The translations under genes were made by a program, and so were the position numbers. From a virus, in the IMG/VR virus record IMGVR_UViG_3300037189_015081, positions 52,682-116,681 of that record: a DNA stretch of 64,000 bases; one strand, written 5' to 3'. The notes beneath the pieces are model-generated. The model searched no databases. It worked only from the letters and a program-made list of their open reading frames with translations, and was not told the origin of the DNA. Shown one piece after another: positions 41,829-59,524 of the stretch. Positions within the stretch are counted from its first letter, which is position 1. Each line of letters begins with the position of its first letter.

Positions 41829-42497
41829 ATGGCTGACAATCGCAAATTGACCCTGGTTCCAGTAGACAATCGTCTCACGGATGGCTTCGTCCAGGGACCC
41901 TGTGTGTTCGTAACCGAGGATGACGAAGGAAATGTCGCGTATGTTCCGATCTATGCGGTTACTCTTGAGATCATTGACGGGCAGTACCATGTCGGCGCCG
42001 CTGAGGTTTCTGGAACACGTTACTACCCGATCGACAAGGTCTCGGACGTGAAAATCAGTGACGCTCGCGGGACACTAACCTTCTCGAGCTACGGTAATAT
42101 CTATAAGGTACGTGCGTTCCAAGAGTCAGACGGTTCCTGGGCCTCACGGTTTGGCGCTGTTGTGCCTGTAGAATCATTAGAGGAGCGATACATGGCCGAG
42201 GTCGAGAACGCGTTTTCTCCCAACGCGCCGGCGGATGATGAAAATCTTTACGCCGCTATTGACGAGAACACCAATGAGGTAAAGTACCTCGTGTACTCCT
42301 GCGCAAGCGGTCTTTACATTCGCTCAAATGGCGGATGGTTTGCTCTCCCGTCAGATGACGAATCCCTGGACAATCTCATTGTTGACGAGATGGACCCCAA
42401 GGTTATTAAGATTTTTGACCTCGCCGAGGCGGAAAACGAAACACTCATGTCGGACGACGTGCAGAAGTACGCGGTCGCATTTCGGAATGGACAGTAA
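41829..42497 (+). CDS. Head-region hypothetical protein, 222 aa
   Basis: Strand-rich protein (KLTLVPVDNRLTDGFVQGPC; GNVAYVPIYAVTLEIIDGQY; RGTLTFSSYGNIYKVRAF) with a second, similar sheet-rich half. Its stop overlaps the ATG of the protease gene (TAATG). Probably a small head accessory or decoration protein; no family recognised. Confidence 0.8.
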   Translation: MADNRKLTLVPVDNRLTDGFVQGPCVFVTEDDEGNVAYVPIYAVTLEIIDGQYHVGAAEVSGTRYYPIDKVSDVKISDARGTLTFSSYGNIYKVRAFQESDGSWASRFGAVVPVESLEERYMAEVENAFSPNAPADDENLYAAIDENTNEVKYLVYSCASGLYIRSNGGWFALPSDDESLDNLIVDEMDPKVIKIFDLAEAENETLMSDDVQKYAVAFRNGQ

Positions 42498-45400
42498 TGG
42501 CTGAGTTTCTTGGATCGCAGGGTTCATATGTTCTATTTAGCAATGGAGCAAATGGCGCAATCGTCGATACCGCGCTGAACATCGTTGTAGAGACAGGCGA
42601 CGCTCGTACTATTTTTTCTGCTGGAGAGTGGAGTCTGTCTCCTGTAGAAGTAAGTCAAGCTGCCCGCGATCTCGCCGATGCGGCCATGTCGTCGCTTGAC
42701 ATCCGCGTAATCACTGCTTCTGGTCGCATGTACACGATCCCTAAGGGTGTACAGGCCGAGGCACAGCGCGCACTTGACTGGCACAAGGAATTTAATCGCG
42801 GCGGAACCCCTGTAGGTCTAGGCATGGCACGCACTCTTGCCGAGGGCGGACAGATTGGTATCGAGCGTGTTCGTCACATCGCGAAGTATTTTCCACGTCA
42901 CGAAGTTGACAAGAAGGCGACAGGTTACCAGCCTGGAGAGGACGGGTTCCCTTCAGCTGGCCGTATCGCCTGGGCTCTTTGGGGCGGGGACGCCGGGTGG
43001 CGCTGGGCTAGCGTAATCGTTGATCGCGAAAATAAGAAGGCCGTGACAGCTGATGGACTCGGCTATGAGCCGTCACCAGCAGTAGACTTTGACTATGACG
43101 CTGATCTTGACGCATTCCACGCGGCTAATGAGCTCGATGAAGGTGTTGGACCAGAGTTCATCGCCCGTGTGCGCATGGACGGTTCAGGTATCGACCGTCT
43201 GTACCGCGTTGACATCGACGGTCAGGTTTACGTATGGGACGACCTTTCCTGGGACGATCTCGGGCACGTCAATGGCGACATCTATACCTATGACCGTGCG
43301 CTCGACGACCCGTACGACATGGTCGAAAAGGACTACGTCATTATTGACCCGGCATCGGCCGTTGTTATCTCCGCGTATATGCAGCAGAATCCGTATGACT
43401 ACGTTTCTATTGACCAAATCGACTCCGTAGAGGCTCAGATGGTCGCTGATGCCCTGGCCGAGATCGACTGGGAGCTTATTGACCGCGCCATTGTCTCGGC
43501 TGGTGCGCCTGTCGCCGATCCTTCAGCGACTGACGGCCAGTATACGCCAGAGGAGCGCGCAGCTAACGCCTCGAAGCAGGTTCGCGACGCTGGAGGCAAG
43601 TTTGCCGCCGCTGGTAACCGTGTAACCGTTGGCGGTGACTCGAGTAGGACCGGTGAGGTTACCCAGGTAAACCAGAGCGACGGCTCGGTTGTTGTCAAAA
43701 TGGACGCAGGCGGATCGGTGACTGTTCCAGCGAACACTACCCGCCAGATTAACGCTGAAGCCATTGGCACCGAGTCGCTCGGGACAACCGCCCCGAGCGC
43801 AACAGCCACCGCACCTGCTGGTCAGCCCGTTGACCGCGGACAGGTTCTCGACACCTCTGGTATTCTTGGAGAACCACGCGTACCGATCAATCAGCCAAAC
43901 GCTCGTATCCCTGGAACGCTCCCTGCCATGACCGCGGCTGACCTTAAGCAGGTCATGTACAACTATCCTGCCTGGGTGAAGTCGCAGCGTGACCAGTTTG
44001 CTCCGCAGAAGCAGATGGCACCAGTCGAGGTGCAGTCTAAGGGAAGCCTCGACGTTGGAGCACCGGCAAAGGCGCTGGAAAAATCATCTGGTAAGCAGAT
44101 CATTCTTGATGCGTACAACCACCCGCTGATTCAGAACTGGCTGCACGGTCGGGACAAGCAGACCGGAACCCCTAACGCGCTATGGTATCACCCGGTAACC
44201 GCTGATGCGTCACCGCAGGGTGAAACCGTTGTCCCGGGTGCGACCCCGGAACCGGCACCTTCAACCGACGCGGCATCGGTTTCCGCTGAACCAATGACCC
44301 CGGAAACATCCGATGTTCAGCCACTGTACTTCGCGGTTGTTTCACCAGATGATCCTCGCGCGGTTCTTGACCTTGTCGCCATTGTTCCAGCAAGCGCCAC
44401 ATCCAATCTTCCTACAGCGTACAAGCGTGTTAAGGGAGACTGGCAACAGGACGAGGGAATTCTTGGAGATCTAAACTCTGCAACACCTCCGCCTGTCGTT
44501 CCTCTTGACACTGACACGTTGAACAGCGTTCTTCAGCAGATCGACGGTCTTGCGCCTATTGCTGCTGGTGGAACACTTCTATCCCACGCGCTCATGGTTC
44601 TATGGAACAGTGATATTGAGACCATTATCGCCGCTGGCGGCCTGGACCGCAACCGTGGTAACGCAGAACGCCTGCGTCGCTACTGGGTACACGGAGAGGG
44701 TGCCGCAAAGATTCGCTGGGGTAAGGGTGGAGACTGGAAGCGCTGCGTGCGCTATCTGTCGAAGTATCTGGGTGTTCGCGCAAAGGGCTACTGCCAGTTG
44801 CGGCACAAGGAGGCACTTGGCTTTTACACCTCTACCCACCGTAAGATGCTCAACAAGGCTAAGGGTCGTAACAACTCGATTATCGAGGAGTTTAGCGGCG
44901 GAACTGGAATCGCTGAGCCAGTGTACGAAGTTCCAGTACCTGAAGAGTACAAGGACGTCCCTGACATTGATCTTAAGATGGATGTCGACGCCATGCACGC
45001 GGAGCACGACGATCTGTACGATGAGTCGTGGCAACCCGACGAGGAAATTGCTGCCGCAATGGACGAGTTGTCCAAGTGCAGTGACGAGGACTACCTTGTT
45101 CTTATTGCCGCTGGCGGCCTGGACCGCAACCGTGGTAATGCTGAAAAGCTTCGCCGTTACTGGACCATTGGTAAGGGCGGGGCGAAGATTCGCTGGAACA
45201 CTAAGGGCGACTGGACACGTTGTGTTCGTCACCTTGAAAAGTACCTTGGTCCTCGCGCCAAGGGTTACTGCGCACTGCGACACCACGAGATGACTGGAAT
45301 GTGGACAGGCGATCGTGCCCACGCCGCATTGTACGGTCGAAAAGGTCGTCGAAACAACATGTTTAGTTCAGATGTTCTTGTCTCGACCGATGAGATGATC

Positions 45401-47719
45401 AATCTGTCAACAAGCACGCCGGAGACAATCACCGCTGACGCTGGACTTGACAACGGAGCGCGCTTCTTTATCCCGCTCGTAATCCCCGAGAACCTGGAGT
45501 CTGGTGACGGACGCAGCTTTGAGGAAGGATCGATTGATATTCGCGATCTTCCTCTCCCGCTCCTTTGGCAGATTAAAACTGGCGACGGTCACATGGGTTC
45601 GGTTGTTGTTGGTCGCATTGACAACATGGAGCGAACCGATCAGGGTATTGGAAATGCCCAGGGAGTGTTCGACACTGGCCACTTTGGCGCCGAGGCAGAG
45701 CGCCTTGTTCGAAACGGCTTCCTGCGCGGAGTTTCCGCTGACATGGACAAGTTTGAGGCGGAAGAAGTTACCGCTGAAGTTGACGGTGAAGACGGTCAAA
45801 CCATTGAAAAACAAAAACTAAAGATCACTCATGCCCGAGTGATGGCAGTTACTATTGTACCTAAGCCCGCATTCCAGGAATGCACAATCCGCATTGTCGA
45901 CGACATTCCGGAGATTGAACAACAGGAGGAAAACGTGATTCCTGACGGAGTCTATGTAGAAGACGTCGACCCGACGGAGGCAGCCGCAATTGTTGCATCT
46001 GGTATGATTGCTGGAGCAATCCCAGTTGTACCGCCGACATTGTGGTTTGCTGATCAGAAACTCAACAAGGCAACGCCACTCACGGTAACGGATGAGGGTC
46101 AGGTATTCGGCCACATTGCCGCGTGGCACGTTGACCACATTGGCATGGCATTTGGCACCAAGCCTCCCCGCTCGCGCAGCAAGTACGCGTACTTCCACAC
46201 TGGAGTTGTTCGTACCGAGGATGGAACGGACGTTCCAGTTGGTCAGCTCACGCTCGCTGGTGGACACGCCTCGCTCGAGGCAAGTGCACTCGAGGCGGCG
46301 CGCCACTACGACGACACCGCGTCTGCAATCGCTGACGTTCACGCTGGCGAGGACGCCTACGGTATCTGGGTCGCTGGATCTCTTCGCCCGGGAGCTACTC
46401 CTGAGCAGGTTCGCGCGCTTCGCGCATCGGCACCGTCTGGTGACTGGCGCCCGATCAAGGGTGGTCTCGAACTCGTAGCCGTTTGTCAGGTAAATGTTCC
46501 CGGCTTCCCGATCGCACGCGCACGCGTTGCATCCGGCCAGGTAATGGCTCTGGTCGCGGCCGGCGCGAACACACTCGCTCGTATGAAGAGTGACCCAGTA
46601 ACGGAACTCGCTGCACGCCTGGAGCTGCTCGAGCGTAAGCAGAATGAGAGTGGTATGGAAGACATCCGCGCACGTTTCAACTCGATCAAGGCTGACTTGA
46701 ACATCGAGCCTGTCACCGCAGACGCTGGTTACGAGGAGATCGAGCCAGCCGAAGTCGCCGAGACGGTTGACGAGAACGAGTCCCACCTTGTCGAGGAGCT
46801 TGAAGCTCTTCTTTCAAATGTTGTCTCGGTCTACTTCCGCGCGCACGGCTACCACTGGAACGTAAAGGGCCAGGACTTCTCGCAGTACCACGAGCTCTTT
46901 GGCGAGATCTACGAGGACGTGTACAGCTCGATCGACCCGATCGCCGAGAACATTCGCAAGCTTGGTTCGGACTCGCCATTCAACCTTGGCGCATTTGCGT
47001 CGTCGGACAGCATCGGTGACTCAACAATTGACACCGCTACCGCGACTGGAATGGCATACGACCTTTACAGCGCGAATGAGGAACTCGTCGAGCAGCTTAA
47101 GAGCGTGTTCCGTTGTGCCAATGAGTACGACGAGCAGGGTATCGCGAACTTCATCGCGGAGCGCATCGACATGCACCAGAAATGGTCATGGCAGCTGAAG
47201 GCTTCGGTCACACCGGAACAGATGCAGATCCTTGACAATGAGACTGGCGAGCCTGCCTATGAGGACGAGGACGCGGAGACCGAGATGGTCGGCGGACACG
47301 AGATCGAACCAGTGTACGCCTCGGGCGGAGAAGAACTCGAGCAGTTGAGCGCTTCAGAGTTTAGCGCAGCTCAGAACCTGTCAATTCAGGTTGAAGAGAT
47401 GCGCGCACGCATCGCCGAGTTCAGCAGCGTAACTGAGTTTAAGAACTTCACCCCGGAGGAGCGCAAGGCTCTCGCTGAAAAGGGATTTGCTCTCCCGGAC
47501 GGTTCCTACCCGATCCGTAACGTCGACGATCTCAAGAACGCGATCCACGCGTATGGTCGCTCACCTCTCAAGGGACGCATGGAGGTGCGCAAGCACATCA
47601 TCAAGCGTGCCAAGGCGCTTGACTCCCGCGACCTGATCCCTACCGCCTGGGCAAACCCGACCAACTCGCCAAGCCACTACGCGGCTGACAGCGAGGACAC
47701 AAGCCTGGGAAAAGCGTAA
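42497..47719 (+). CDS. Capsid maturation protease polyprotein with Dps-like domain
   Basis: 1740 residues. N-terminal region with WALWGGDAGWRWA; a duplicated module (GLDRNRGNAE...RRYW...GAKIRW...RC...KGYC.LRH) at about 713-780 and 874-945; the protease core (LPLPLLWQIKTGDGHMGSVV, GFLRGVSADMDKFE, MAVTIVPKPAF), as in actinophage prohead proteases; a C-terminal LWFADQKLNKATPLTVTDEG domain. Residues about 1430-1570 are Dps-like: His1453, His1465, Asp1480, Glu1484. The end has the ALPDGSYPI/HIIKRAKAL domain. A -1 frameshift signal lies at the stop. Confidence 0.9.
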   Translation: MAEFLGSQGSYVLFSNGANGAIVDTALNIVVETGDARTIFSAGEWSLSPVEVSQAARDLADAAMSSLDIRVITASGRMYTIPKGVQAEAQRALDWHKEFNRGGTPVGLGMARTLAEGGQIGIERVRHIAKYFPRHEVDKKATGYQPGEDGFPSAGRIAWALWGGDAGWRWASVIVDRENKKAVTADGLGYEPSPAVDFDYDADLDAFHAANELDEGVGPEFIARVRMDGSGIDRLYRVDIDGQVYVWDDLSWDDLGHVNGDIYTYDRALDDPYDMVEKDYVIIDPASAVVISAYMQQNPYDYVSIDQIDSVEAQMVADALAEIDWELIDRAIVSAGAPVADPSATDGQYTPEERAANASKQVRDAGGKFAAAGNRVTVGGDSSRTGEVTQVNQSDGSVVVKMDAGGSVTVPANTTRQINAEAIGTESLGTTAPSATATAPAGQPVDRGQVLDTSGILGEPRVPINQPNARIPGTLPAMTAADLKQVMYNYPAWVKSQRDQFAPQKQMAPVEVQSKGSLDVGAPAKALEKSSGKQIILDAYNHPLIQNWLHGRDKQTGTPNALWYHPVTADASPQGETVVPGATPEPAPSTDAASVSAEPMTPETSDVQPLYFAVVSPDDPRAVLDLVAIVPASATSNLPTAYKRVKGDWQQDEGILGDLNSATPPPVVPLDTDTLNSVLQQIDGLAPIAAGGTLLSHALMVLWNSDIETIIAAGGLDRNRGNAERLRRYWVHGEGAAKIRWGKGGDWKRCVRYLSKYLGVRAKGYCQLRHKEALGFYTSTHRKMLNKAKGRNNSIIEEFSGGTGIAEPVYEVPVPEEYKDVPDIDLKMDVDAMHAEHDDLYDESWQPDEEIAAAMDELSKCSDEDYLVLIAAGGLDRNRGNAEKLRRYWTIGKGGAKIRWNTKGDWTRCVRHLEKYLGPRAKGYCALRHHEMTGMWTGDRAHAALYGRKGRRNNMFSSDVLVSTDEMINLSTSTPETITADAGLDNGARFFIPLVIPENLESGDGRSFEEGSIDIRDLPLPLLWQIKTGDGHMGSVVVGRIDNMERTDQGIGNAQGVFDTGHFGAEAERLVRNGFLRGVSADMDKFEAEEVTAEVDGEDGQTIEKQKLKITHARVMAVTIVPKPAFQECTIRIVDDIPEIEQQEENVIPDGVYVEDVDPTEAAAIVASGMIAGAIPVVPPTLWFADQKLNKATPLTVTDEGQVFGHIAAWHVDHIGMAFGTKPPRSRSKYAYFHTGVVRTEDGTDVPVGQLTLAGGHASLEASALEAARHYDDTASAIADVHAGEDAYGIWVAGSLRPGATPEQVRALRASAPSGDWRPIKGGLELVAVCQVNVPGFPIARARVASGQVMALVAAGANTLARMKSDPVTELAARLELLERKQNESGMEDIRARFNSIKADLNIEPVTADAGYEEIEPAEVAETVDENESHLVEELEALLSNVVSVYFRAHGYHWNVKGQDFSQYHELFGEIYEDVYSSIDPIAENIRKLGSDSPFNLGAFASSDSIGDSTIDTATATGMAYDLYSANEELVEQLKSVFRCANEYDEQGIANFIAERIDMHQKWSWQLKASVTPEQMQILDNETGEPAYEDEDAETEMVGGHEIEPVYASGGEELEQLSASEFSAAQNLSIQVEEMRARIAEFSSVTEFKNFTPEERKALAEKGFALPDGSYPIRNVDDLKNAIHAYGRSPLKGRMEVRKHIIKRAKALDSRDLIPTAWANPTNSPSHYAADSEDTSLGKA

Positions 47720-47778
47720 CGGCTGAGTTTGCCGAGCAGTCGGTCGATACTGGCCGGTACACTGCAAAAACTCAGCCG
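47707..47778 (+). promoter_or_regulatory. -1 programmed ribosomal frameshift signal
   Basis: G GGA AAA (47707-47713) in the zero frame, stop TAA at 47717-47719, six-base spacer, then CGGCTGAGTTT (47720-47730) pairing perfectly with AAACTCAGCCG (47768-47778). Inside the loop CCGA-GCAG-TCGG can form a second hairpin. Confidence 0.85.
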
Positions 47779-48261
47779 CGGGATATAAAAGGTAAATTCC
47801 GCGAGGTCCTTGCAAGAATCAAGGTTGACGCTGGCGTATCCGGTATTCAGGACGTTCTTACCAAGGTAAAAGAGGCTGAGAACTACGACAACACCGGTAA
47901 CTATGTCGAGGCAACAAAGTCCGCAGCTGATCTGATCGGCCTTATCGACCGTATTGATTCAAAGGCTGTTACACCTCACACGCTTGAAAGCGTGCGCCAG
48001 GCGTCAAAGGACCTGGGTAGCGCGGTTGCCAATCTCCCTCTGCCATTTGGTAGTGAAAATGAAAAGGTTCGCTTCAGCGATCTCCCTCCAGCGTTGCAGA
48101 CGCTTATTGGTGACATGATGAAGCGTGTAACAAAAAAGATTGGCGCGAAGGACGCGGCTGAGGCTACGGCAAAGCTTAGCAACTTCAAGTCAGGCGGTGA
48201 TTACTTCACCCAAAGTGAAGTAAGTGCTGAATTGAGCAAGATGCTCAGATTACTTACCTAG
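47710..48261 (+). CDS. Frameshift extension of the capsid maturation protease
   Basis: The -1 frame is open from 47689 to the TAG at 48259-48261 and has no good start before a GTG at 47992, which lacks a ribosome site. Slippage at GGGAAAA would join 1739 protease residues to 182 more (total about 1921). The extension is helical and looks like a real domain: GKFREVLARIKVDAGVSGIQ, NTGNYVEATKSAADLIGLID, ANLPLPFG, LPPALQTLIGDMMKR. I recall similar sequence as the C-terminus of other actinophage proteases. Reported here as coding only through the shift. Confidence 0.8.
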   Translation, partial: KSVTAEFAEQSVDTGRYTAKTQPRDIKGKFREVLARIKVDAGVSGIQDVLTKVKEAENYDNTGNYVEATKSAADLIGLIDRIDSKAVTPHTLESVRQASKDLGSAVANLPLPFGSENEKVRFSDLPPALQTLIGDMMKRVTKKIGAKDAAEATAKLSNFKSGGDYFTQSEVSAELSKMLRLLT

Positions 48262-48391: not shown

Positions 48392-50437
48392 GTGGACCAC
48401 ATCAAAGAAATGCTCGACACACTGACCGAGCTCAGCGACGACCAGGTCGCAGAGCTTCAGTCGGCAATCGTCGGCGAATTTGAGACGGTTGAGAAAGAAG
48501 ATCCTACTCCGCAGACAGTAGATGCCATGACATCGCTTGCTGACATGCTTGACACCGTGCGCGGTGAAGTACAGCGTCGTGAGGCCGCAGCTGAAGAGCT
48601 TGCGTCGCGCGCCGCCGAGGCTGCTACCCGCGTTGCGGAAGCCAAGGACGCACAGCCTGCCGATGCCGTGAGCGGTGATAACAAGGAAGAAGGGGCAATG
48701 GATAAGCCTGCAGATGCAGAGACCCCCGAAGCCGATGTGACCGAAACAGCCAAGTCAAACCCGGCTGAAGCATCGTCTGCTACGGAAGAGGGTTCTGAAC
48801 TTTCGACCACAACTGACGTCGAGGCTGCTGTTGAAGCAGAGTTCGCCGTCGAAGAGGCAGCTACCGAAGAAGAGATCGTCCCAGTTGACGCTCCTGAAGA
48901 GGTTCCTGCTGTAGAGGAACAGCCTGCAGCTCCCGCTGAAGGCGAGCCCGTCGTTGAAGGCGAGCCTGCACCCGAGGGTGAAATCGCCCCCGAGGTCGAG
49001 CCCGTCGTCGAGGAAGAGGTTGTTCCAGTTTCAGAAGAGGAAGTCAAGCCAGCTGCCGCTGAAGCAGCTATTGACGCCGACGCTGAGGCAGAAGCATCAA
49101 ACACACCATCAATCGCTCAAGATGAGCAGAAGGAGCAGGAGGCCCCAGTGACCGCCGCAGCAGAACAGCCTTTCGAGGCACCCGCTGACCGTCAGCCTGT
49201 CGCCCAGGTAACAGAAGCAGCAGCAGTGGCAATCACCGCTGGTGCTGACATCCCTGGCTACACCGCCGGCAGCACCGTATCCGACATGCAGGAAGTTGCA
49301 ACGCTTATGTCAAAGCGTCTGCACGGCCTGCGCAACGTCAACGGTGGAAACGGAGAGCAGCACATCGTTGCCTCCATCACCACCTCTTTCCCAGAGGAGC
49401 GTGTCCTTACTCAGGATGCAGAGTCCAACTGGGCAAAGATCCGCGAGGTCGTTTCGCCTGAGGCAATCGTTGCTTCTGGTGGACACGTCGCTCCGTTCGA
49501 GAGCCGCTACGACGTCTTCGGCATCGGCACCACAGCACGCCCAGTGCGCGACTCGCTCGCTCGCTTCCAGGCTGACCGCGGTGGTATCCGTTTCATCACC
49601 CCGCCGGTGCTTTCGAGCTACGACTCGGCTGTAAGCGTTTGGACCGCTGCTAACGACGCAGCAACCACCCCAAACCCTTCGGCAAAGTCAAGCCTGACCG
49701 TCGCTGCCGCCCAGGAGAACACCGTCGCTACCGACGCTGTTACCCTGCAGCTCCAGTTCGGTAACCTCGCTACTCGCGCCTACCCCGAGCTCATCGCTCG
49801 TCACAACGAGTTGGGTCTCATCCAGCACGCTCGTGAGGCTGAGCAGTACCTCGTCAGCAAGATCAACGCTGCTTCGACGGCAGTCACCTCGACCAACCTT
49901 ATTGGTTTCGGTCGCGACTTCCTCGTTCAGATTGGTCGCGCCGCCGCTGCGTACCGTTCGCGTCACCGCATGGAGACCGATGCACCGCTGCGTGCAATCG
50001 TTCCCGGCTGGGTAAAGGACGCCATGGCTGCTGACCTCGCGCTCAACATGCCTGGTGACAACCTGCTCAACGCTTACGCTGAGATCGACGGCTACGTCGC
50101 CGCTCGTGGCGTAAACCTGACCGTTTCGCTTGACAACACCGTTTTCGGTGCTCAGGGCGCAACTGCTCTGGTTGAGTTCCCGGACTCGTTCGTCTGGCAG
50201 CTGTTCGCTGAGGGCTCGTTCCTCTTCCTGGACGGTGGCACGCTGGACCTCGGTATCATCCGTGACAGCACGCTCGTCGGTACCAACGACTACAAGATGT
50301 TCGTGGAAACCTTCGAAGGTATCGCCTTCGTTGGTGTCGAGTCCCTCTCGATCACATCGACCATCTCGGTCAACGGTGTCGCAGCTGCTCTTCGCGACAC
50401 AACTGGTGGCGCTACCGCCGCTGCTATCGAGCTCTAA
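48392..50437 (+). CDS. Major capsid protein with acidic scaffold-like N-terminus
   Basis: 681 residues from GTG 48392. Residues 1-290 are Glu/Ala/Pro/Val-rich, with EGEPVVEGEP-type repeats, and probably act as a scaffold or delta domain removed by the protease. The remaining 390 fit an HK97-fold subunit: ESRYDVFGIGTTARPVRDSL, GGIRFITPPVLSSYDSAV, YLVSKINAAST, NMPGDNLLNAYAEIDGY and DSTLVGTNDYKMFVETFEGI. It builds the shell. Confidence 0.92.
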   Translation: MDHIKEMLDTLTELSDDQVAELQSAIVGEFETVEKEDPTPQTVDAMTSLADMLDTVRGEVQRREAAAEELASRAAEAATRVAEAKDAQPADAVSGDNKEEGAMDKPADAETPEADVTETAKSNPAEASSATEEGSELSTTTDVEAAVEAEFAVEEAATEEEIVPVDAPEEVPAVEEQPAAPAEGEPVVEGEPAPEGEIAPEVEPVVEEEVVPVSEEEVKPAAAEAAIDADAEAEASNTPSIAQDEQKEQEAPVTAAAEQPFEAPADRQPVAQVTEAAAVAITAGADIPGYTAGSTVSDMQEVATLMSKRLHGLRNVNGGNGEQHIVASITTSFPEERVLTQDAESNWAKIREVVSPEAIVASGGHVAPFESRYDVFGIGTTARPVRDSLARFQADRGGIRFITPPVLSSYDSAVSVWTAANDAATTPNPSAKSSLTVAAAQENTVATDAVTLQLQFGNLATRAYPELIARHNELGLIQHAREAEQYLVSKINAASTAVTSTNLIGFGRDFLVQIGRAAAAYRSRHRMETDAPLRAIVPGWVKDAMAADLALNMPGDNLLNAYAEIDGYVAARGVNLTVSLDNTVFGAQGATALVEFPDSFVWQLFAEGSFLFLDGGTLDLGIIRDSTLVGTNDYKMFVETFEGIAFVGVESLSITSTISVNGVAAALRDTTGGATAAAIEL

Positions 50438-51667: not shown

Positions 51668-52732
51668 ATGGCTACTCAAGAATATGCCGCAAGCATCCAG
51701 GGTGTCGCCATTCGTGTCACCCGCCTCGACGCTTCCGGTAACCTGCAGAACGGCCCTGGTGACAGCTACACCACCTCGGCTTTCATGCGCATCTCGTTCA
51801 CACCAGAGTACGAGGAAGGCGACGAAATCGTTGAAAAGTCGGCTAACGGCTCGATCTGCGTTTCGTACAAGGCTCCTGACACCCTCAAGCGTGTAACCAT
51901 GGAGCTCGCCATCTGTGAGCCTGACCCTGAGCTTACAAACCTCATCTCCGGCGGTCTTCTTCTTCGCAAGAACCTCGGAACGTTCTCGACAAAGGACACG
52001 ACAACCAAGTCGGTCGGTTGGGCTTCGCCAAACGTCGGTGACGACCCCGCCGGTTACGGTGTTGCCATCGAGGCATGGTCGTTCGCCGTCAAGGACGGTA
52101 AGCGCGCCGCTACGCTGCCTTACTTCCACTGGGTGTTCCCGTACGCTCGTCTCCGCCAGTCGGGTGACCGCGTCATCGAGAACGGCATGCTCGCCACGAC
52201 ATTCGAGGGCTACGCACTTGGAAACGGCCTGTTTGACAGTGGCCTTGACGAGCGCTGGGAGTTCCCGCTTGCTACCGAGCGTCCATACTCGTACGCACGT
52301 ACCACATGGGCACCGACTGGTCGTCACGGTTTCTACACCTGGCACGGCGAGCTCACCGCATCGGTCAACAACAAGGCTCTTGCCAGCAACGTCGCGACTC
52401 TTACAACTGCAGCCGCTCACGGTTTTGCTGCTGGAGAGACCGTAACGATTTCCGGTGTTGACGCCACGTTCAACGGAACATACACGATCGCCTCGGTCCC
52501 GACAACCACGACGTTCACCTACGCCAAGACCGCTACTGACGTCACGTCAGCCGCTGTCTCGCCGGTCGGTGCCGCATCGGTTGCTGCTGGTAGCCGCGAG
52601 GTTGTTACCCTTCTTGACCCTGCTACAACGAAGACGTCGGCTGACGGATTCAACGTACCTGGTGCGGTCGAGTTCAACGCTGATCAGACAATCGACTTCG
52701 TCCTTACATCTTCGGCGGATCCGACTAACTAA
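51668..52732 (+). CDS. Major tail protein
   Basis: 354 residues. The body (FMRISFTPEYEEGDEIVEKS; CEPDPELTNLISGGLLL; GYGVAIEAWSFAV; PYFHWVFPYARLRQSGDRVI) matches actinophage tail tube proteins as I know them. A C-terminal module (HGFAAGETVTISGVDATFNG TYTIAS...) is added as a surface decoration, related to those in the 50522 and 59524 proteins. AAAGGAGAA site and its own promoter; a strong hairpin follows. Confidence 0.87.
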   Translation: MATQEYAASIQGVAIRVTRLDASGNLQNGPGDSYTTSAFMRISFTPEYEEGDEIVEKSANGSICVSYKAPDTLKRVTMELAICEPDPELTNLISGGLLLRKNLGTFSTKDTTTKSVGWASPNVGDDPAGYGVAIEAWSFAVKDGKRAATLPYFHWVFPYARLRQSGDRVIENGMLATTFEGYALGNGLFDSGLDERWEFPLATERPYSYARTTWAPTGRHGFYTWHGELTASVNNKALASNVATLTTAAAHGFAAGETVTISGVDATFNGTYTIASVPTTTTFTYAKTATDVTSAAVSPVGAASVAAGSREVVTLLDPATTKTSADGFNVPGAVEFNADQTIDFVLTSSADPTN

Positions 52733-55042: not shown

Positions 55043-55378
55043 ATGACTGCACGCTTCAAAGACTTTGGATCTGGTGCCGCTGGTAACCAGGAGCCGATCT
55101 CGTTCAAGCTCTACGATGAAACCTTTGACTGTGTAAAGCAGGTTCAGGGGCACGTTCTTCTTGAGCTTGTTGCTGACTCAAGCAGCACCGACCCCGCAAA
55201 GGCTTCCGCTGTTGTTACCAAGTTCTTTGAGTACGTTTTGACGGACGAAAGCTACGCCCGTTTTGACCTGCTCGTCAAGGACAAGGAGAAGATCGTTTCC
55301 GTTGAGACACTCGCTGACATCACGAGCTGGCTTGTTGAGGAGTACAGCGCCCGCCCGGAAACGCAGCCAGAGGTCTAG
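55043..55378 (+). CDS. Tail assembly chaperone (G-type), 111 aa
   Basis: Short helical protein starting MTARFKDFGS, with ISFKLYDETFDCVKQVQGHV and AVVTKFFEYVLTDESYARFD, and placed right before the -1 frame partner and the tape measure gene, the canonical position of chaperone G. The partner frame overlaps its 3' end, as expected for G/GT pairs. Confidence 0.85.
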   Translation: MTARFKDFGSGAAGNQEPISFKLYDETFDCVKQVQGHVLLELVADSSSTDPAKASAVVTKFFEYVLTDESYARFDLLVKDKEKIVSVETLADITSWLVEEYSARPETQPEV

Positions 55379-55803
55379 CAAACTGGGCAATTGACCTCTG
55401 GCCATACATAAATGGTAAAGCCCTTGTTCACGGATTGAAGCTAATGGAAATGGAAGTGAGTGACATGCTAGACGTTATCCACTTCTTCTTCGAGGAAGAC
55501 CTTAACTTCACATCCGGTGAACAGGCGGAAGCCCAGTCCAAGATGCGCACGGAAATGTACCAAACAATGTACGGGGTGGAGTACAAGTACCCCATGGCGC
55601 AAAGCAACACCAAGCAGGGTTTTCAGACGAGCGCGACATCGAACTTCGACTTTGAACCTGAAGATGAGGCGACAATGGCCGCCCGTGAGATTAAACCATT
55701 TGACCCGTTGAAACCACCGACAAAGGCGTTCGTACCAGCGACCGACTTTGACGTGGACTCGGCTAAACCGTTTGGCACCGCGCTGGACGCGCCTCTAGGA
55801 TAA
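55339..55803 (+). CDS. Tail assembly chaperone T-part (-1 frame)
   Basis: Frame -1 relative to the previous gene is open from 55339 to 55803. It reads NWAIDLWPYINGKALVHGLK upstream of the first possible start (TTG 55435, no ribosome site), then DMLDVIHFFFEEDLNFTSGE. The reading into the overlap implies a G-T frameshift. The best slippery site I see is C CCG GAA at 55354-55360, which is not canonical. It binds the tape measure during tail assembly. Confidence 0.75.
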   Translation, partial: GVQRPPGNAARGLANWAIDLWPYINGKALVHGLKLMEMEVSDMLDVIHFFFEEDLNFTSGEQAEAQSKMRTEMYQTMYGVEYKYPMAQSNTKQGFQTSATSNFDFEPEDEATMAAREIKPFDPLKPPTKAFVPATDFDVDSAKPFGTALDAPLG

Positions 55804-55816
55804 CAAGGAATACACG

Positions 55817-58800
55817 ATGGCTGTTGTCGGTGATGCATATATCATCGTTCGTGCCCTGACCGATAAGGTCGAGGGCGACATCCGTCGTGGATTCAGCGGG
55901 GTTGACAAGATCGGTGAAAAGGCCGGTAAGGACCTGGCGACAGTTTTCTCTGACGCGTTTAGCAACAATAAATCCAATGGCGATTTCTTCGGGAATCTTG
56001 CCAGCGGTCTTGAGGCTATTGCTCCAGAGGCGCTCAATACGCGCAAGGCGGTACAGGATCTGACAGCTAGCGGAAACGTCTTTGGTACTAGCGTTGCTAC
56101 TCTCATCGGCTCCGTATCGGCTCTTATCGGTGGTCTGGTTGCTCTTGGTGGTAACGCTATCGGAGCAGCGGCCTCGCTTGCCGCGGCTGGAAACGTCCTG
56201 GCAAGTTTTGGTCTTGGCATGGTCGCGGCAAAGATCGGTCTGGGGGGTGTCGGTCAAGCCTTTACCGCGCTAAACAAGATCGCCAATGGTGGAGGCGCGT
56301 CATACTCCGCCAGGCTCGCCGCGGTGAACCGCGTGCAGGACGCCGAAGCCAATCTTGCCAAGACTATCGAGCAGAACCGTAACAAGCTCGCTGACGCAAA
56401 TGAGGCTGTTCGCCGCGCACAGATCGCGCTAAACCAGGCGATCATCAAGGGTCGCGAAGAGATCCAGCAGCTCGGGTTTGACGCTGAAGGTGCGGCTCTT
56501 TCTGAGAAGAAAGCCGCACTCGAGTTAGACAAGGCACGCGCCAATCTCGCCGCGGTTCAGGATCTTCCGCCAAACTCGCGAGTGCGCAAGGAGGCCGAGC
56601 TCGCGTACCAGGAGGCTGAGCTCAACCTGCGCAAGGCTAAGGACAAATCGGCGGATCTAAACAAGGAGCAGAACCGTCTTGCAAAGACTGGCGTTGCTGG
56701 AACCGCTGGCGTTATCGAGGCAACACAGCGATTGTCCGACGCGGAAAAGGCGCGCGCGCGTGATGGTGTAGAGGCGCTGCGTTCACAGGCGGCTGCTGAA
56801 CTTGAGCTTGCCCGTGCGAAAGCCGCCAATGACAGGGTAGGTAGTGGAAGCGGTGGTGCAAATCCATTAGCGGGTCTCACCGCCGCGCAGGTGACATTTG
56901 TACGGTTCCTGCAATCGATCAATCCTAAGCTTAAAGAAATCCGCCAGAACATCTCTGAGGCGTTCCTGGTACCGCTGCAGCAAGCCATTACTCTTCTAGT
57001 TAATCGCGCGTTCCCGACAATTAATGCCGGGATGACAAAGATCGCTGGCGCCATGGGCGGTGTCGCCGTGGAGATCGCCAAGTCGGTGACAAGCAGCCAG
57101 AATCTTTTAGCTCTTGGTAAGTTTTTCACGTCATCCTCAAAGCTTCTTCGCACATTTGGTGGAGCTCTCGGAAACATCTACGGTATCGCACTGACATTGC
57201 TAAACGCTCTTGCCCCGACGGCGCAGCGTTTCGCGGACTGGCTTAAAACAACGACGGGTCGCTGGGATACCTGGATGAAGAGCGCCCAGGGTAGTGCGGC
57301 GGTTACAGACTTCTTCACCAAGTCATCGGACGCTGCCGCGAAGTTTGGCAAGGTCTTTGGAAATATCTTTAAGGGTATTGGCGCTATTATCTCCGCCAAC
57401 CTTGGACCAGGCACTGGCGGAGACTATCTATTAAACTGGCTCGTTACCGCAACTGACGGTTTCGGTAAACTAGGCGATTCTGCGAATGGTAAAGGAAACC
57501 TTAAACAGTACTTTAATGATGTCGCGGTAAACTCACAGAAGATCTTCTCGTCGGTCGGTGCTCTTATTGGTCAACTCGTGAAGCTTGGCGCTGATCCGAC
57601 AATCGGTAAAACATTTGACATTCTAAAGCAAGGTGCACCGGCTCTTGGCGAGTTACTTAGTAAGGCGCAAAAGGCCGGACCGTCACTGGCCGGTCTGGTC
57701 ACGTCGCTTATCGGTATCGCAAACAAGATGGCCGATACCGGTGCGATAAAGATATTCTTTGACACGCTTAAGATCGCGGCTGATACCGTAAGAGCGTTCT
57801 TAGACAACCCAGTTGTTAACGCTATTCTTACGGTAACAGGGCGACTCTTCGGCATTGGTGTAGCCTTGAACATGCTTATCAAGGTAAGCAAGTTTGCCTT
57901 TAACTTTCTTATCGGTGACCTGATCGCGTATCTCAAAAAGATCTCGTTTGTTGTTAGTGGTATTGGCGACATGGCCAAGGCGTTTGGCGAGCTTCAAAAG
58001 GCCGGGTCTGGTGTTGAGGGAATGCTCATTAAACTTGCTGACTCAAACAATAAGTTTGTTTCAACACTTGGCAACGCCGGCATCAAGGCATATGACACAT
58101 GGGGAAAGATTGGTCCGTCTGTTGGAAAGATGGGCACGGCTATCGGCGGCACATTTGCTGGTATCGGTAGAAGCCTTGGAACGTTCTTCACCGGCCCTGT
58201 CGGTATTGCTCTCGGGGTAATTGCTCTTCTTGTCGGAGCATTCATTCTCCTTTACAAAACATCCGACACGTTCCGCGCGCAAATGGACGCAGTGTTCGCC
58301 CAGCTCATGGCTGTGTTCGCCCAGGCGGGTCAACAGATCATGGCCGCGATCCAGCCGCTCATCCCTGTCCTCATGGGCGCGTTCACGCAGATCATGAACG
58401 CGGTTGCTCCTCTAATTCCAATACTACTAAACTCACTTGTTCCAGCATTCCAGAGTATTGTCACCGCGCTCATTCCTGTCGTGACAATGCTTCTGTCCTC
58501 ACTTGTCCCGGTAATCGGACAGGTTGCCTCGGCGATTATTCCGCTTATTGGTACGATCATCACAGCTCTCGTTCCGGCCATTGTCGCGATTGTTAACGCG
58601 GTTGTCCCGGTTGTCGTGACACTTATCAACATACTGGTGCCAGTGTTTACGACGATCATCAACGCGATGATGCCATTGATCACGATGATCATTAACATGC
58701 TTGTCCCGGTTATCACGCAGATCGCGACAGCGTTTACGCCTGTGATCACGATGATTGTTCAACAGGTCGTTCCAGTCTTCACGCAGATCATGAACACGCT

Positions 58801-59524
58801 CATGCCATTGATCACGATGATCATTAACATGCTGGTGCCTGTTATTTCACAGATTATCACCGCGTTTATGCCAGTGATCACAATGATCCTGCAGTTGCTC
58901 ATGCCAGTTTTGACGGTTCTGATCAACATTTTCTCTGGTATCATTACTGTCGTGATGAACGTTGTCATGGCGCTCATTAAGTTCCTTATGCCAATCATCA
59001 CGACCGTTATCGGAGCATTCGCCGGGTTCATTAAGTTCCTCCCGCAGATCGGCACCGTGTTCGCGGGGGTATGGAACGGTATCGTAAGTTTCTTCAAGGG
59101 TATCGCCAACTGGTTGATCGGCCTAGTTGAGGGAATGGTCAATGGCATGATTGACGCGATCAACAGGTTCACTAAACCATTCAAGGACGCTATTCAAGCT
59201 GTTGTAAAGTTCTTTGGTGGCAACATTCAGATCGGTATCATCCCTCACGTGTCGCTCCCCCGTCTCGCTAAGGGTGGCGTTGTTGCGCCGTCGCCCGGCG
59301 GTTCACTCGTGAACGTCGCCGAGGCTGGTCGCCCTGAGCGTATCGAGCCGCTCGACGCAAACGGTATGTCAAAGCGCGACAAGGCGATGCTTGACGCCAT
59401 GCGAAACAGCGGCGCCAGTGGTATTCAGATCAATGTTCACCCTGCTCCAGGAATGAACGAACAGGAGCTTGCCGCGAAGGTCGGTCGCGAACTCGCGCTC
59501 CAGATGCGTAAGGGTGCAATCTAA
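55817..59524 (+). CDS. Tail tape measure protein
   Basis: 1235 residues. N-terminus DAYIIVRALTDKVEGDIRRG, coiled coils near 155-310, then a hydrophobic zone. Residues about 847-1041 contain about seventeen tandem 11-residue units of the type P-(V/L)-(I/V)-T-x-I-x4-(V/L) (for example PLITMIINMLV, PVITQIATAFT). The C-terminus (NVAEAGRPERIEPLDANGMS) is typical of actinophage tape measures. It sets tail length and is the longest tail gene, followed directly by distal-tail genes. Confidence 0.95.
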   Translation: MAVVGDAYIIVRALTDKVEGDIRRGFSGVDKIGEKAGKDLATVFSDAFSNNKSNGDFFGNLASGLEAIAPEALNTRKAVQDLTASGNVFGTSVATLIGSVSALIGGLVALGGNAIGAAASLAAAGNVLASFGLGMVAAKIGLGGVGQAFTALNKIANGGGASYSARLAAVNRVQDAEANLAKTIEQNRNKLADANEAVRRAQIALNQAIIKGREEIQQLGFDAEGAALSEKKAALELDKARANLAAVQDLPPNSRVRKEAELAYQEAELNLRKAKDKSADLNKEQNRLAKTGVAGTAGVIEATQRLSDAEKARARDGVEALRSQAAAELELARAKAANDRVGSGSGGANPLAGLTAAQVTFVRFLQSINPKLKEIRQNISEAFLVPLQQAITLLVNRAFPTINAGMTKIAGAMGGVAVEIAKSVTSSQNLLALGKFFTSSSKLLRTFGGALGNIYGIALTLLNALAPTAQRFADWLKTTTGRWDTWMKSAQGSAAVTDFFTKSSDAAAKFGKVFGNIFKGIGAIISANLGPGTGGDYLLNWLVTATDGFGKLGDSANGKGNLKQYFNDVAVNSQKIFSSVGALIGQLVKLGADPTIGKTFDILKQGAPALGELLSKAQKAGPSLAGLVTSLIGIANKMADTGAIKIFFDTLKIAADTVRAFLDNPVVNAILTVTGRLFGIGVALNMLIKVSKFAFNFLIGDLIAYLKKISFVVSGIGDMAKAFGELQKAGSGVEGMLIKLADSNNKFVSTLGNAGIKAYDTWGKIGPSVGKMGTAIGGTFAGIGRSLGTFFTGPVGIALGVIALLVGAFILLYKTSDTFRAQMDAVFAQLMAVFAQAGQQIMAAIQPLIPVLMGAFTQIMNAVAPLIPILLNSLVPAFQSIVTALIPVVTMLLSSLVPVIGQVASAIIPLIGTIITALVPAIVAIVNAVVPVVVTLINILVPVFTTIINAMMPLITMIINMLVPVITQIATAFTPVITMIVQQVVPVFTQIMNTLMPLITMIINMLVPVISQIITAFMPVITMILQLLMPVLTVLINIFSGIITVVMNVVMALIKFLMPIITTVIGAFAGFIKFLPQIGTVFAGVWNGIVSFFKGIANWLIGLVEGMVNGMIDAINRFTKPFKDAIQAVVKFFGGNIQIGIIPHVSLPRLAKGGVVAPSPGGSLVNVAEAGRPERIEPLDANGMSKRDKAMLDAMRNSGASGIQINVHPAPGMNEQELAAKVGRELALQMRKGAI

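Follow-up and report, generated by a model that had tools for sequence, protein, structure and literature searches.

A bacterial example of programmed −1 ribosomal frameshifting is dnaX (tau/gamma), in which a heptamer A AAA AAG is followed by a stem of about 11 bp, part of the family has a Shine-Dalgarno (SD)-like site upstream, and a −1 stop lies directly after the slip, so that shifting makes the short form; reversed polarity is also reported in some bacteria (PMC5009743). In tailed phages, known uses are tail assembly chaperones and major capsid or tail proteins. Lambda G/GT is a low-level −1 shift near the end of a morphogenesis ORF that adds a domain (PMC5009743), and the heptamer GGGAAAA is used for tail chaperones in, for example, Microbacterium phage Bush (PMC11749239). 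As for head proteins, frameshifting in T3/T7 gene 10, Lactobacillus phage A2, and Listeria phage PSA yields two forms of the coat protein, which is often extended by an Ig-like domain (PMC5009743).

The locus considered here differs from each of these in its gene, a predicted phage head maturation protease located directly before the major capsid gene. Compared with dnaX, the heptamer is GGGAAAA, AAAAAAA, or CCCAAAA depending on the clade, and most relatives have the truncating polarity, in contrast to lambda G/GT. Unlike the major capsid cases, it is the protease polyprotein that gains or loses a helical (predicted) domain. In the literature searched, which does not cover most subscription papers, no precedent for frameshifting in this gene was found.

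The frameshift signal and its surroundings

The window is a stretch of 64,000 nucleotides (positions 52,682 to 116,681) from the 116,681-base IMG/VR virus record IMGVR_UViG_3300037189_015081. The relevant features, all on the plus strand, are as follows.

42497..47719 (+), 0-frame ORF of 1,740 aa, head maturation protease polyprotein, short form ending ...LGKA
47694..47697 (+), SD-like AGGA, 9 nt before the heptamer, a possible stimulator
47707..47713 (+), slippery heptamer G GGA AAA
47717..47719 (+), 0-frame stop TAA that ends the short form
47720..47730 (+), 5' arm of the stem, CGGCTGAGTTT
47768..47778 (+), 3' arm of the stem, AAACTCAGCCG
47713..48261 (+), −1 frame extension of 182 aa, the C-terminal domain of the long form
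48392..50437 (+), major capsid protein homologue, with the start GTG inferred from locus L002

The ORF is assigned to head maturation proteases by PHROG (phrog_18402, E 4.8e-57; phrog_859, E 4.2e-89) and has a ferritin/Dps-like domain at residues 1433-1569 (Pfam PF00210, E 6.9e-11), which is absent from L002 and probably from most relatives. Homologues of the next gene annotated as major capsid protein in DSL-LC01, Cece, and A3Wally lie directly after the extension. The tape measure gene, in contrast, is located at 55817-59524. It is preceded by a pair of ORFs (55043-55378 and 55435-55803) that looks like tail assembly chaperones in −1 relation, although the first ORF has no in-frame X XXY YYZ heptamer.

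The initial annotation, which proposed a programmed −1 frameshift extending the protease, is confirmed with respect to the sequence elements. The ORF ends with ...AGC CTG GGA AAA GCG TAA; thus, one codon (GCG) lies between the heptamer and the stop, a detail in which the initial annotation differs. The 6-nt spacer GCGTAA is followed by a perfect 11-bp stem, and the segment folds to −31 kcal/mol with an inner stem. The −1 frame is open to 48261, with no ATG, GTG, or TTG before 47992. G GGA AAA is the only in-frame X XXY YYZ heptamer (Y = A or T) in the 1,740 codons, and at 1,708 other in-frame positions the longest perfect stem in the matching place is 8 bp (mean 4.1). The extension is homologous to the C-terminus of continuous ORFs in relatives (62-66% identity to the closest) and is under purifying selection (pN 0.22 and pS 0.81 versus locus L108).

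Conservation of the junction among relatives

Protein searches and two DNA-pattern scans of the viral collection gave 213 loci with the extension, 102 of them non-redundant; one pattern match, L122, is unrelated. Relatives include Microbacterium phages Pumpernickel, Zooman, Big4, Cece, and A3Wally, as well as Actinomycetia phage DSL-LC01. In most of them protease and extension form one open frame, which by itself would suggest a broken gene in the window. The DNA, however, shows otherwise: among 79 testable ORFs, 62 have a canonical heptamer in the 18-codon junction, against 3.5% expected from the rest of the same ORFs.

In the 33-member GGGAAAA clade every sequence reads NNG GGA AAA NNN NNN GCG GYT GAG ... 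ACT CAR CCG CGN. The heptamer is invariant although the preceding codon varies (Leu, Met, Val, or Ala, always ending in G). The 9-bp stem GCGGYTGAG/CTCARCCGC is present in all members, including those found by protein search alone, and is thus not a product of the pattern search. Its variable pair is always matched, GTT with CAA and GCT with CAG (26 T-A, 9 C-G, and no mismatch in 35 rows that include the window and locus L136), which ties a Val/Ala replacement to a silent Gln codon farther downstream. The tree requires four switches on each side, of which, however, only one lies on strongly supported branches, so the covariation argument leans on the whole tree. An SD-like site is located 8-14 nt upstream in 15 of the 33 members, against 7% background. 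The distance of 9 nt in the window falls within the 9-14 nt reported for −1 stimulation (PMC5009743), but since only about half of the clade has such a site, an SD stimulator throughout is not supported.

The second clade (25 members) has CTA AAA AAA, the third one (7 members) has a run of seven A further downstream, and the Microbacterium phages have CCCAAAA or AAAAAAA. Stems of other sequence follow at about 7 nt in the Microbacterium phages and in most of the third clade, but are weaker in the second. In all 65 members of the three clades the −1 frame stops 1, 2, or 4 codons after the heptamer, while the background share within five codons is 39%. In the two large clades the slip site with its downstream codons is the least synonymously variable 7-codon segment of about 350 codons (observed/expected 0.02 and 0.03, with medians of 0.77 and 0.66, respectively).

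About a quarter of relatives, however, have no canonical heptamer at the junction, and some have the extension as a separate ORF after the protease (DSL-LC01, L040, L053, L068, and L074). Fused, frameshifted, and separate arrangements thus exist in one family, and two forms by frameshift are not universal. In relatives without a junction heptamer, no canonical heptamer was found. In these and in the third clade the lowest synonymous diversity belongs to a stretch AATTYWGAAGCASTTTTT (protein NSEA[VL]F; L178, L171, L200, L034, and others), about 53-61 codons before the QPRD motif; MTNSEAV is also the start of the separate extension gene in DSL-LC01. This T-run element is unexplained and could be another recoding site, a nested start, or a cleavage site. 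Frame breaks inside the protease region but away from the junction, in L080 near 2886 and L086 near 2094, are probably mutations or assembly errors.

Polarity and interpretation

In nearly all relatives the 0 frame gives the long protein and the slip should truncate it, as in dnaX. In 82 of 85 pattern matches the distance from the heptamer to CGG is 7 nt, and the exceptions, at 6 nt, are the window and L131/L136. The latter two loci, identical over 9,283 bases, come from two metagenomes and have CTG GGA AAA TAG in the 0 frame, the extension intact in the −1 frame, and no start codon before its conserved QPRD core. Thus, in both lineages the roles of shifted and unshifted product are swapped. 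The best trees place them apart (the window near L082 or L108, L136 near L107, which has the forward polarity), but a single clade is not rejected by the AU test (p 0.20), so independent origin is likely rather than shown.

The best explanation, with a probability of roughly 0.83, appears to be a conserved programmed −1 ribosomal frameshift that makes two forms of the head protease. According to this reading, ribosomes meet the stem, and perhaps also the upstream SD-like site, while G GGA AAA is in their decoding sites, and a fraction slips back one base to GGG AAA. In this phage, ribosomes that do not slip stop one codon later (...LGKA), and those that slip add the 182-aa domain (...LGKSVTAEF...), a one-base deletion in the spacer having swapped the roles. 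The signal, its conservation and covariation, and both polarities are seen in the sequences, whereas actual shifting, its frequency, and the use of both proteins are inferred without experimental data. The initial annotation also suggested that the longer form could be a minor scaffold or carry a capsid-binding domain. A rare minor product is, however, unlikely, because a reversible polarity suggests an efficiency not far from 50%; such a swap is best tolerated if efficiency is near this value and both forms are needed. As for function, the extension is predicted to be all-helical (mean pLDDT 71.8), and sequence and fold searches gave nothing useful, with no detectable relative of known function and no detectable similarity to a known scaffold. 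Since it is a separate gene in some relatives, it can act in trans. A role in placing or scaffolding the protease during head assembly is the likeliest guess, but still only a guess.

Among alternatives, an error in this contig survives best, although it is unlikely. Relatives are continuous and differ at the spacer by one base, and the missing base rests on one contig, without a second assembly of this virus for comparison. In contrast, another lineage shows the same polarity in two metagenome assemblies, and in the window the bottom G-C pair of the stem is also lost, which keeps the spacer at 6 nt and would not be explained by an isolated read error. An assembly error cannot be fully excluded, but the heptamer and stem would then still act as a dnaX-type truncating frameshift. 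Slippage of RNA polymerase on the A run, which makes the two dnaX products in Thermus (PMC5009743), seems improbable: two clades do have runs of seven A with weak or variable stems, but GGGAAAA and CCCAAAA have only four A, and the stems, the spacing, the codon phase of the heptamer, and the SD-like sites all fit ribosomal shifting. A simple gene split, with the extension re-initiated or not made at all, is the least likely, since, although DSL-LC01, L040, and L074 show a plausible ATG or GTG start for their separate ORF, in the window the first ATG/GTG/TTG lies 93 codons into the conserved domain, and the heptamer, spacing, and stem are conserved in relatives that have no split.

A bolder reading, more likely than not but less certain than the frameshift itself, is a third standing use of programmed frameshifting in tailed phages besides tail chaperones and major capsid or tail proteins, namely, a dnaX-like switch, near 1:1, that sets the ratio of head protease with and without a helical assembly domain. 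It would be old enough to have changed its heptamer and stem between clades, and robust enough that one-base deletions have reversed its polarity, probably more than once, without loss of function. The finding would add a head-assembly protease to the known homes of phage frameshifting and show that a short and a long form of it are both under selection. The family holds both polarities of one signal and is thus a natural test of the idea that a one-base change can swap the roles of shifted and unshifted product when efficiency is near 50%. Cultured Microbacterium phages carry the signal inside a single CDS annotated without a frameshift, so a truncated form of their protease may have been overlooked.
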